Below are positions 40,406 through 44,869 of a stretch of 44,869 bases of DNA, piece after piece. The translations under genes and the position numbers were made by a program. Within the stretch, counting starts at the first letter, position 1, and the number at the start of each line of letters is the position of its first letter. The notes under the pieces are model-generated. The model was not told where the DNA came from, did no database searches, and worked only from the letters and a program-made list of their open reading frames with translations. The stretch is from Prochlorococcus sp. AG-311-J23 (lineage in GTDB: Bacteria > Cyanobacteriota > Cyanobacteriia > PCC-6307 > Cyanobiaceae): NCBI GenBank assembly GCA_003284375.1, contig QBVL01000008.1, positions 1 through 44,869 on the forward strand, written 5' to 3'.

Positions 40406-40479
40406 GCTCCCTTAGCTCAGCTGGATAGAGCAACTGCCTTCTAAGCAGTGGGCCGCTGGTTCGAATCCAGCAGGGAGCG
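40406..40479 (+). tRNA. tRNA-Arg (anticodon TCT)
   Basis: 74-nt cloverleaf without CCA. Acceptor GCTCCCT pairs with AGGGAGC. D arm GCTC-AGCTGGATA-GAGC. Anticodon stem ACTGC/GCAGT with loop CTTCTAA gives anticodon UCU. Variable loop GGGCC. T arm GCTGG-TTCGAAT-CCAGC. Discriminator G. It is the left boundary and target of the island; its 3' half recurs at 44569. Confidence 0.97.
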
Positions 40480-40865
40480 TACTCAAAACATAGTGATACC
40501 AATAGACCTCAGAGATTGTTGAAATTCTCTGAGTCATCTTGATATGTCGTGATACTTGCCGATATAGCAATTCTGCACCAAAATATCAAGATTGAATGTG
40601 GACGTGGATGGAGTGATCTATATCTAGAGATGGCTCAATTTTACTTTTTGCTAACAGTTCTGCGAAAGCAAATTCAAGATAGTCAATTATTTTGGAGACA
40701 AATCTACGAATACTTATAAAAAAATTGCTGATGTCTTAGGGATTCAAAGTTTATTGAAAATTCGAGAATAAAGATCTCAAAACTAAAAACGATGAAACGG
40801 AAAGACGAATTTTGTCCAATCAAATCAATTAATAAGCTTTATACTGGATATTGATTTGAGGGGGT
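40480..40865 (+). pseudogene. Decayed copy of the tRNA-flanking DNA and integrase start
   Basis: The DNA after the intact tRNA resembles the DNA after the tRNA fragment at 44617-44869. Shared are GTACTCAAA immediately after the tRNA, AACAGTTCTGCGAA near 40650-40663 (44716-44729 on the right), and GCAAATCTGCGAACACTTATAAAAAA-like sequence near 40695-40726 (44760-44785). The right copy opens an integrase with ATG; here the start is ATA, about nine bases are missing after the A run, and the frame is lost. It is best read as the relic of an older integrase. No intact gene is present. Confidence 0.65.
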
Positions 40866-42371
40866 GTGTTAAGAGTGCTTGAAGAAAAAAACGATGCCAA
40901 ACAAAAAAAATATAAAAATAAGGTTTTTCAAGTTCCTTATTCATTGGGAAAAATCAAAAAAAATATTACACTTTTTTCAAATAACCTTTCTGAACAATCA
41001 AAGGAAGTCATAGCTAAACAAGCATTAAGATTTCACTCAAACGGAAACATTTCAGAAGCAGTAAAACTTTATCAATATTTAATTAATCAAGGTTTTAATG
41101 ATCACCAAATTTTTTCTAATTATGGAGTTATATTATTAAATCTTGGTAAGTTTAAAGAAGCAAAAATAGCTCTCCTTAAAGCAATAGAACTTAAACCTGA
41201 TTATGCTGAAGCATATTCCAATCTGGGAAATTTATTGAGAAATCTTGGTAATTTTAAAGAAGCAGAAATATCTATCAATAAAGCAATAGATTTAAAACCT
41301 GATTATGCTGAAGCACACTCTAATCTCGGAAATGTCTTAAAAGAACTTGGTAAGTTAAAAGAAGCAGAAAAAGTATTGCGAAAGGCCATAAAGCTTAAAC
41401 CAGATTACTCAAATGCTTATTCGAATCTAGGCATTGTACTTAAAAGTCTTGGATATTCAGACGAAGCAGAAAATAATTTTTCGAAAGCAATTGACTTAAA
41501 TCCATCTTCAACTATTGCATTGATGAACAGATGGGAGTTTTATTTTGATAAAAAGGATTTTGATCTCGCATTAAAAGATGCAGACTCATGTATCTCAGAA
41601 GACTCAAAAGTAGCAGCATTGAAATCTCTTTATGCTTTAGGTAGGCTTGATGAGATTTATGAGAGAATTAAAAATATCTCTAAAAAAGACGACAAAAATA
41701 TTAGCTTAGCTGCGTTTTCTTCTTTTATTTCAGAGCAAGAAAAAAAAGATACTTCGTATAATTTTTGTAGGAACCCATTAGATTATATGCATTTTACTAA
41801 CATCAAAATCCATATTAACAACTATATTGATTTTATAAGAGAAATTATTAATGAGCTATATGAATGTGACAGTGTTTGGGAACCTTTAAAGACAACAACT
41901 CATAATGGATTTCAAACACCAACACATATAGACTTATTCTCAAGCAACTCTAATAAGATTTCAAAACTAAAATCAATTATTTTAGAGGAATTAAATACAT
42001 ATTATTGTAAATATGAAAAAGAGACTTGCTCTTACATTAAAAAATGGCCCACAATCAAGAATATTTTTGGATGGCATGTTATCCTAAAAAGACAAGGATA
42101 TCAAGAGGCGCATATACATCCTTATGGTTGGTTAAGCGGAGTAATTTATTTAAAAGTTGTTCCAGATCTAGATAACGCTGAAGGTGCAATTGAGTTTAGT
42201 TTAAATGGACCTGATTACTCAAATAATAATTCTCCTAAGTTAACTTATTCTCCTAAATCAGGTGATATAATTTTTTTCCCATCTTCACTTCACCATCGTA
42301 CTATTCCTTTCAGCACAGACACAGATAGGATTGTTATAGCTTTTGACTTAATGCCACAAGGTAATAAATAA
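40866..42371 (+). CDS. TPR protein with C-terminal 2OG-Fe(II) oxygenase-like domain
   Basis: 501 residues; GTG 40866 is the first start, but GTG 40875 has a better-spaced GAGGGG. The leader at ~19-45 has F-x-VP-x-SLG and an NN pair. TPRs span ~50-280, with the QGF...SNYG signature in the first. Residues ~305-500 resemble the CHP02466 type of 2OG-Fe(II) oxygenase: H416/H418 in EAHIHPYGWLSGVIYLKV, H476/H477 in SSLHHRTIPF and an Arg in TDRIVIAF. Likely hydroxylates a small molecule or peptide; unknown. It shares a 102-bp DNA unit with the next gene at about 95 percent identity. Confidence 0.83.
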   Translation: MLRVLEEKNDAKQKKYKNKVFQVPYSLGKIKKNITLFSNNLSEQSKEVIAKQALRFHSNGNISEAVKLYQYLINQGFNDHQIFSNYGVILLNLGKFKEAKIALLKAIELKPDYAEAYSNLGNLLRNLGNFKEAEISINKAIDLKPDYAEAHSNLGNVLKELGKLKEAEKVLRKAIKLKPDYSNAYSNLGIVLKSLGYSDEAENNFSKAIDLNPSSTIALMNRWEFYFDKKDFDLALKDADSCISEDSKVAALKSLYALGRLDEIYERIKNISKKDDKNISLAAFSSFISEQEKKDTSYNFCRNPLDYMHFTNIKIHINNYIDFIREIINELYECDSVWEPLKTTTHNGFQTPTHIDLFSSNSNKISKLKSIILEELNTYYCKYEKETCSYIKKWPTIKNIFGWHVILKRQGYQEAHIHPYGWLSGVIYLKVVPDLDNAEGAIEFSLNGPDYSNNNSPKLTYSPKSGDIIFFPSSLHHRTIPFSTDTDRIVIAFDLMPQGNK

Positions 42372-42417
42372 ATTCATTTTTACTTAGTCTGTTTATTTAA
42401 ACATTAAATTTTCGACT

Positions 42418-42439
42418 AAAATATTTAGCTAAATATTTT
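42418..42439. repeat. Perfect 22-bp AT palindrome
   Basis: AAAATATTTAG-CTAAATATTTT is a perfect palindrome between the two island TPR genes, 47 bp after the stop at 42371. It could form a cruciform or a weak terminator, or bind a dimeric protein. Confidence 0.45.
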
Positions 42440-42588
42440 ATGTTATTAACTATTTAAAAATAGATTTAAATATTCATATAAACATTCCATTCCCTCAAGA
42501 TTTTTTAGAAAGATTAAAAGGCATAGTCTGCTAAAATAGGTTTTATAAAGGAATAAAGAACATCTATCTTAGCCTTTCATGGAGAATC

Positions 42589-44285: not shown

Positions 44286-44376
44286 ATAAGCAACCAAAGT
44301 AATAACAAAAGTAGCTTAAAAACATCGTTATTTCAAATAAATTACGCCTGTTACTCAGGTTGAATTTTACGATTGT

Positions 44377-44403
44377 GGGCTGCCCTTGGCGGCTCTTTTA
44401 TTT
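44377..44403 (+). terminator. Terminator-like hairpin near the island right end
   Basis: GGGCTGCC (44377-44384), loop CTT, GGCGGCTC (44388-44395), eight pairs including G-U, followed by TTTTATTT. No gene ends just before it, so it may be a relic of a lost gene. A 26-codon frame overlapping it has no better support. Confidence 0.55.
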
Positions 44404-44568
44404 GTTATTTAGTAGAAGTTATTAAAGACAAAAAAGTGCTACAATACCAGTAAGAGACTTAAGAGTTTAAATAAATAGCTAATATATCAATTCTGCACCT
44501 AAAAATGTCCCACTTAAATATATTTTTCTAGATTTTTTAGTGATAGACAGTGTTTTCAAACGCAAACT

Positions 44569-44616
44569 AACTGCCTTCTAAGCAGTGGGCCGCAAGTTCG
44601 AATCTTGCAGGGAGCG
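44569..44616 (+). other. Partial tRNA-Arg (48-nt 3' fragment), probable attachment site
   Basis: From AACTGCCTTCTAAGCAGT through the T arm to the discriminator G this matches the intact tRNA-Arg at 40406-40479; the 5' acceptor and D arm are missing. The T stem differs: GCAAG/CTTGC here versus GCTGG/CCAGC in the intact gene, with pairing kept on both sides. Such fragments are left when an integrase using the tRNA 3' end inserts an element. It marks the right end of the TPR-gene element and the left end of the next one. Confidence 0.85.
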
Positions 44617-44741
44617 TACTCAAACACAAGTGATCCCAAGAGATTACAGTAATTTCACCAAGAGCTACTGCATAGCTGGCTATAGCTAGATATGGATGAT
44701 TATTGCTATTCGGCGAACAGTTCTGCGAACGCAAACTCCAG

Positions 44742-44869
44742 ATGGCGACTGATTGGGAAGCAAATCTGCGAACACTTATAAAAAATACTGAAAAAGACGC
44801 TGATTTCTTAAGGCGTGGAAGCTCTTGGAAAGTTAGTGGCGTAAGGGGTAAAACTCAAGTCACTATGAG
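44742..44869 (+). CDS. Tyrosine recombinase (integrase), N-terminal part, cut by window edge
   Basis: ATG 44742 opens MATDWEANLRTLIKN, TEKDADFLRRGSSWKVSGVR, then GKTQVTM before the window ends; 42 codons are visible. The position 126 bp after a tRNA 3' fragment and the helical N-terminus followed by WKVSGVRGKTQV resemble the arm-binding part of Prochlorococcus tRNA-targeting integrases. The catalytic domain is outside the window, so the call rests on context and similarity of style. The frame can be extended 14 codons upstream (a TTG at 44703), with a stop at 44697. Confidence 0.6.
   Translation, partial: MATDWEANLRTLIKNTEKDADFLRRGSSWKVSGVRGKTQVTM

Follow-up and report, generated by a model that had tools for sequence, protein, structure and literature searches.

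What built the DNA behind the tRNA-Arg(UCU) gene near the right-hand end of contig QBVL01000008.1 of Prochlorococcus sp. AG-311-J23, where two TPR fusion genes lie between the tRNA and a partial second copy of it? The window analysed is this whole contig (C8 of its genome; 44,869 nucleotides (nt)), and ARAGORN finds one tRNA in it, the tRNA-Arg(UCU). We consider it highly probable that positions 40406-44869 form the edge, at tRNA-Arg(UCU), of a large genomic island in Prochlorococcus that has grown through successive insertions of tyrosine-recombinase elements. An earlier note on this DNA had proposed two related elements in tandem at the tRNA. Its parts (intact tRNA-Arg(UCU), two TPR fusion genes, a small gene, a 48-nt tRNA fragment and an intact integrase start) were all found again, and two units do stand in tandem at one tRNA. 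They belong, however, to two families, 419 and 441, whose integrases are 48% identical and whose right ends are 49-57% identical.

The region was compared with 41 genomes of the genus, which provided 32 loci with a full tRNA-Arg. Queries for the element ends were taken from genome G031, which thus matches by construction. Its contig C22 is the contig of locus L034 from AG-402-B05, and G023 is AG-402-I21; related records with AG- names are presumably single-cell genomes. The features are as follows.

40406-40479, plus strand: intact tRNA-Arg(UCU), the integration target (ARAGORN), T-stem allele CTGG/CCAG.
40480-40611, plus strand: left-end remnant of the 419 family with about 20 first integrase codons; matches L064, with an internal deletion between two repeat copies.
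40618-40723, plus strand: 441-type integrase-start stub, fused to the preceding 419-family remnant; 77% identical to 44680-44785 and 78% to two relatives.
40866-42371, plus strand: TPR gene 1, 501 residues, GTG start, with leader, TPR and 2OG-Fe(II) oxygenase (PF13759, E value 1.8e-21, and TPR Pfam families).
41240-41370, plus strand: 131-bp stretch of TPR gene 1, inside the repeats, 95.4% identical to 42864-42994 of TPR gene 2 (self-comparison).
42589-44010, plus strand: TPR gene 2, 473 residues, with leader, TPR (Pfam) and a C-terminal domain with a methyltransferase-like motif I, enzyme class unproven.
44079-44297, minus strand: small gene of family fam8, 72 residues (family comparison with relatives).
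44409-44568, plus strand: element right end of type A, 81-89% identical in four relatives.
44569-44616, plus strand: 3' fragment of tRNA-Arg, nt 27-74 (anticodon stem-loop to 3' end), 44/48 identical, T-stem CAAG/CTTG and still paired.
44617-44702, plus strand: left end of a 441-family element, 94% identical over 86 bp to G031.
44703-44869, plus strand: intact start of a 441-type tyrosine recombinase, ending with the contig, 93-96% identical over 55 residues to relatives.

Because a type A right end is combined with a 419-type left end, we take 40406-44616 as one unit; it reads as a bounded 419-family unit of about 4.2 kb, with a 441-family unit after it. As the earlier note had stated, this proximal unit holds the TPR genes and has no integrase, only integrase stubs.

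The prediction that the distal frame begins a tyrosine recombinase is supported by complete relatives. Over its 55 residues, the frame at 44703 shares 93% identity with the beginning of a 441-residue protein that immediately follows tRNA-Arg in AG-432-D11 (L035), and 96% with that of a 441-residue protein immediately following a tRNA-Arg fragment in AG-402-B05. The 441-residue protein of G031 matches a PHROG integrase (3e-12), and its score with Pfam PF00589 (21.3 bits) lies below the 27.1-bit cut-off. The complete 419-residue integrase, which in G031 sits behind the tRNA-Arg, matches a PHROG integrase at 1.6e-15. An R-H-R-Y recombinase signature had been named as a check; in the relatives' complete 441-type integrases, which read R..Y-x-x-R..H..Y, the R, R, H and Y are present and Y-x-x-R replaces H-x-x-R (in what we take to be the box names, His II replaced by Tyr). 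Two complete 441-type genes differ at 103 synonymous and 33 non-synonymous positions by hand count, which is consistent with constraint on this integrase. Prim-Pol and VapE/helicase genes lie downstream of the 441-residue integrase of G031, and a Prim-Pol relative lies downstream of its 419-residue integrase. The integrase search returned five loci, all of them Prochlorococcus records.

Behind the tRNA of the window, what had been described as one decayed integrase-like start does consist of integrase remnants, although as two fused stubs, one 419-type and one 441-type. Positions 40406-40611 match the left end of the 419-residue integrase in G031 (L064) at 95% over 181 bp from the tRNA start and at 100% over 41 bp; tblastn aligns the 40480-40611 remnant with the 419-residue integrase at 80% over 20 residues, and the deletion in it falls between two copies of a 16-nt repeat. 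Judged by these alignments, the two fused stubs and the distal left end give at least three element left ends, of two families, in the window. A left end stands behind the intact tRNA in 26 of the 32 loci, in G028 by 19 bp only.

The tRNA fragment was matched at an E value of 2.7e-14 against the fetched loci of relatives, and at 2.9e-19 (69 bp, 90%) in a longer match against the whole of its own genome. Such 3' fragments of tRNA-Arg occur in 14 of the 41 genomes as 15 copies, every one starting at tRNA nt 24-27, and a sixteenth, weaker copy (81%) lies in G004. Each fragment in the 14 genomes sits behind a conserved element right end of about 160 bp. Two types of right end were distinguished: type A in the window, G021, G029, G031 and G033 (81-89% identical), and type B in ten copies from nine genomes (60-88% identical). 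In 12 of 14 genomes a type A right end is paired with a left end of the 419 type, or a type B right end with one of the 441 type (Fisher p 0.021, with end types assigned by hand and kinship uncorrected); the two ends lie on different contigs in G014, G021 and G029 and in opposite orientation in G031. On that G031 contig (L064 6232-15768), tRNA-Arg and fragment lie about 9.4 kb apart in opposite orientation, each with an outward-pointing integrase, and the usual upstream genes are absent; the layout is either a real inversion or an assembly chimera.

The T-stem is fully paired in all 32 intact tRNAs and in 12 of the 15 fragments, and three alleles were found (CTGG/CCAG, CAAG/CTTG and CAGG/CCTG). 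In the window the intact tRNA carries CTGG/CCAG and the fragment CAAG/CTTG. Because the fragment's allele differs from its neighbour's yet stays paired, the fragment would most simply be the end of another functional tRNA version, and not a decayed copy of the adjacent tRNA. The claim that the proximal unit is the older one was not sustained, and the order of insertion was not established: dating the two insertions by T-stem alleles gave no order, as the alleles are scattered and untied to left-end type. If integrases always attack the intact tRNA, the proximal unit would be the younger.

Taken together, we propose the following course of events. The attachment site of an element would hold a tRNA copy reaching from the anticodon stem-loop to the 3' end, and the element's integrase would join this site to the matching part of the host tRNA. 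The tRNA would thereby be rebuilt, and the displaced 3' half would stay at the far end of the element. A 419-family element (40406-44616) would now lie beside the tRNA, and a 441-family element next to it would leave the contig. Deletions, including a fusion with the 441-type stub, probably removed the integrase of the former and whatever replication genes it had, while two fusion genes with a common leader and TPR repeats were apparently kept between its ends. The crossover would fall in the anticodon loop, the elements may still be mobile, and the TPR genes would have arrived with the element and not by later recombination into it. Two distinct element families would then use one tRNA and leave recognisable fragments, so that island growth in a dominant ocean phototroph could be read as a layered record.

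Several observations weigh against this proposal. No left end is recognisable in 6 of the 32 loci (G003, G009, G015 with 302 bp only, G016, G030 and G038), and G005 and G032 break the pairing of left and right ends. Tabulated by eye, the T-stem alleles are not linked to the type of left end. When mapped on a tree of 29 genomes, made from about 2 kb of DNA upstream of the tRNA, they change 8 times, weakly fewer than the shuffled mean of 10.6 (13 of 200 shuffles as low), and at least 4 of the 8 changes rest on strongly supported branches. This tree was built without G035 (too short), AG-432-D11 and G031, and keeps G006 and G009 despite very long branches, their upstream DNA being probably not homologous. 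We know of no excised circle or activity of such an element. An empty tRNA-Arg site joined to the downstream flank had been named as a check, and no clean one was found among the relatives.

The closest approach to such a site is in the nearest relative, G037, where 754 bp separate the tRNA from the core gene fam5; this interval still holds a left end, fam8/fam9-like DNA and a TPR stub. All 121 genomes sampled from the family have this core gene. In 21 fam5 loci from outside the genus (L144-L164, of 30 returned, with at most 1.5 kb of flank per side) there was no tRNA-Arg, and therefore no outgroup empty site. A further contig of the same genome, C14, carries in reversed orientation more TPR genes, fam9 and integrase remnants and the core pair fam5/fam6, then a tRNA-Ala accompanied by a remnant of an integrase and by a 3' fragment of tRNA-Ala, and then the core flank. 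Judging by how the genes are arranged in G002 and G007, each a single-contig genome, C14 probably follows C8. The third tRNA-Arg fragment predicted to the right was absent from 38.9 of the 39.6 kb of C14. It had also been suggested that a tRNA fragment kept at the same place in relatives without the TPR genes would speak against the two-element reading. In G005, G006, G008, G024 and G033 there is indeed a first fragment with no leader-TPR match between it and the tRNA; these fragments stand behind their own conserved right ends, and we therefore read the loci as variable cargo, not as a refutation.

Mobile islands of this kind have precedents. Tycheposons of Prochlorococcus were reportedly described by Hackl et al. 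in 2023, with seven tRNA sites reported for them. A partial tRNA at the far end is one of their features. The proximal unit resembles them in having tRNA-Arg(UCU) at one border and a tRNA 3' fragment at its far end; it is unlike them in having integrase stubs only and no replication genes. Primase and helicase genes in relatives fit the tycheposon picture. As for the recombinase, the distal unit has 55 residues only, which are 93-96% identical to complete integrases that match PHROG. Excerpts of two papers describe tycheposons as tRNA-bordered cargo islands of 4-200 kb with a tyrosine recombinase, among proposed phage satellites (PMC10872708, PMC11389934); at 4.2 kb, the proximal unit lies at the bottom of the size range given in the excerpt of PMC10872708. 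The locus fits a tycheposon-like tRNA island, which is a known kind. An integrase of picocyanobacteria is described, in excerpts of PMC10187409, at tRNA-Phe and tRNA-Cys and is there set apart from tycheposon integrases. In both that system, as excerpted, and our locus, a tyrosine recombinase adjoins a tRNA within variable Prochlorococcus islands; ours differs in that the tRNA is tRNA-Arg (PMC10187409).

Links to phages were sought in two collections. A peptide-pattern search of IMG/VR, which detects close relatives only, returned nothing for the 441-type integrase, fam9 or the C-terminus of TPR protein 2. In the phage collection, the 441-type integrase had one insignificant match, to a Streptococcus satellite phage integrase (E value 0.2), and fam9 had none.

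The mobile-element reading is well supported, and the cargo is the less ordinary part of the locus. TPR proteins joined to GT41 (OGT-like) domains and TPR-sulfotransferases are familiar combinations of a TPR solenoid with a catalytic domain. Unlike these, one leader-TPR module is found here with many unrelated catalytic domains in one genus. The 30 C-termini scanned with Pfam (28 of 33 fusions from relatives near tRNA-Arg, plus the two window proteins) comprised oxygenases (7), GT41 (7, three of them lower-scoring), sulfotransferases (3), methyltransferases (3), radical SAM/SPASM (2), GT9 (2, both below cut-off), a glycerophosphotransferase (1) and no match (5); at least 2 of these fusions lack the leader (G007 and one of G032). 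Six Pfam enzyme classes above cut-off are thus represented near tRNA-Arg. That a common leader-TPR module is joined to so many types of enzyme in so small a genome is less easily explained. A literature search (open-licence papers; titles and abstract starts) returned no description of a modular leader-TPR enzyme family. From the enzyme classes and from neighbours that resemble sugar genes, we would guess that the TPR enzymes act in surface or protein modification.

The C-terminus of TPR protein 2 contains the motif LEIGAGY, resembling methyltransferase motif I. It had no Pfam match, the C-terminus of a relative had no NCBIfam match, and its matches to O-methyltransferases were weak (E values 0.09-0.2). 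In the fold model of this protein the TPR part has high confidence and the C-terminus is unusable. The C-terminus is matched in 4 of the 41 genomes; in G040 it occurs once on another TPR N-terminus and once without a match to the TPR part.

Might the TPR genes be ordinary island residents, spread by homologous recombination through their repeats and merely surrounded by the element ends? We regard this as possible, though clearly less probable than carriage by the elements. All 41 genomes contain matches to the leader-TPR query, as many as 49 in a single genome. In single-contig genomes clusters of 6-13 matches lie on one strand (L170-L172, L173-L174 and L177-L178), and searches of 30-50 kb around them revealed neither a tRNA nor an integrase of the 441 or 419 type. 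Such clusters, in G004 at 1.36 Mb and in G005 at 1.01 and 1.47 Mb, weigh against a tight tie between the genes and the elements. Against the resident explanation, 15 of the 39 G004 matches listed fall, by eye, within 60 kb downstream of tRNA-Arg, and the order of left end, TPR gene, fam9/fam8 and fragment is constant in several genomes.

A less probable alternative, which we hold unlikely, is that the proximal unit is a recurrent mini-element without an integrase, made of two cis ends and TPR cargo, that full-length integrases, for instance the adjacent 441-type, would move in trans. Forty-two tRNA or fragment sites are followed by 750 bp or more of sequence, and in 18 of them a TPR gene starts within that distance; 19 junctions of left end and TPR gene, one of them on a shorter contig, are 104-539 bp long. 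In G023 (L050, G023:C6) the same left end, stub and leader stand behind both the tRNA and the fragment: compared in 50-bp steps over about 590 bp, the copies show 96-100% identity, for the most part 100%. The junctions listed nevertheless vary by genome, as independent deletions would, several integrase stubs carry stops, and no filled-versus-empty pair was seen among the relatives. An artefact of assembly or amplification in a draft, probably single-cell, genome is scarcely credible: the genome is 77% complete in 55 contigs and the G031 contig is oddly inverted, yet the tRNA, left end, fragment and TPR genes are all present in the single-contig genomes G002, G005 and G006.

In a leader tree of 33 proteins there were 20 changes of enzyme class against 22.0 when shuffled (20 of 200 as low); four class labels were assigned by eye, and no branch is strongly supported. 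The leader thus seems hardly to track enzyme class. In G023 the near-identity begins at tRNA nt 26, spans the left end and reaches about codon 78, beyond which identity falls to about 70%; one block stands behind the tRNA and the other behind the fragment, with a sharp breakpoint inside the gene. These copies, the 131-bp repeat of the window and the G040 C-terminus on another N-terminus suggest that recombination within TPR DNA has exchanged catalytic modules. A bolder version, which we put forward only tentatively and think somewhat doubtful, is a combinatorial enzyme system: elements would bring a fixed 5' module (attachment half, left end, leader and first TPRs), and catalytic modules would be swapped in near-identical TPR DNA. 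The same docking solenoid would in this way acquire new catalytic parts (oxygenases, sulfotransferases, glycosyltransferases, radical SAM enzymes or methyltransferases), perhaps as a way to vary, under pressure from phages, how the cell surface or proteins are modified. The shared leader-TPR module would allow the swapping of modules at a hotspot of mobile elements to be tested directly.

The small gene fam8 stands in relatives, including G029 and G031, beside the helix-turn-helix gene fam9 at the tRNA fragment. A match to family fam9 exists in 27 of the 41 genomes; in the part of the window beyond the tRNA none was detected. The interval from TPR gene to fragment contains fam8 and/or fam9 in the window, G002, G023, G029 and G032. 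From its helical layout fam9 was suspected to be a small terminase, a candidate that was dropped as unsupported by profiles or fold search. Profile searches matched it to no terminase family, it looks like a helix-turn-helix protein, its single-sequence fold model is weak (predicted local distance difference test, pLDDT, 63), and its matches to small terminases are insignificant.

The tRNA-Ala(GGC) gene is, as its sequence neighbourhood indicates, a second integration site that faces tRNA-Arg from the other side of the island. An integrase remnant and its own 3' fragment accompany it, with a leader-TPR gene between (L103 17950-18729; C14 24831-24877). Among the loci examined, some of them counted twice, its 3' fragments gave 12 matches (8 of them nt 28/29-75) and its 5' fragments 10 (6 of nt 1-43 and 4 of nt 2-37). 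The commonest 3' and 5' pieces overlap in the anticodon stem-loop only, and by analogy strand exchange in tRNA-Arg may be placed in the anticodon loop; no 5' fragment of tRNA-Arg was found. In the island of G005 (L182-L183; near 841594, 846197, 851547 and 866274) there are four copies of the tRNA-Ala 5' half (nt 1-43), and they share a conserved stretch of about 60 bp upstream. Because of this shared stretch, some elements may rebuild the 5' and not the 3' half of the tRNA. Within the window, a further leader-TPR frame of 640 residues lies at 6970-8892, far from the tRNA.

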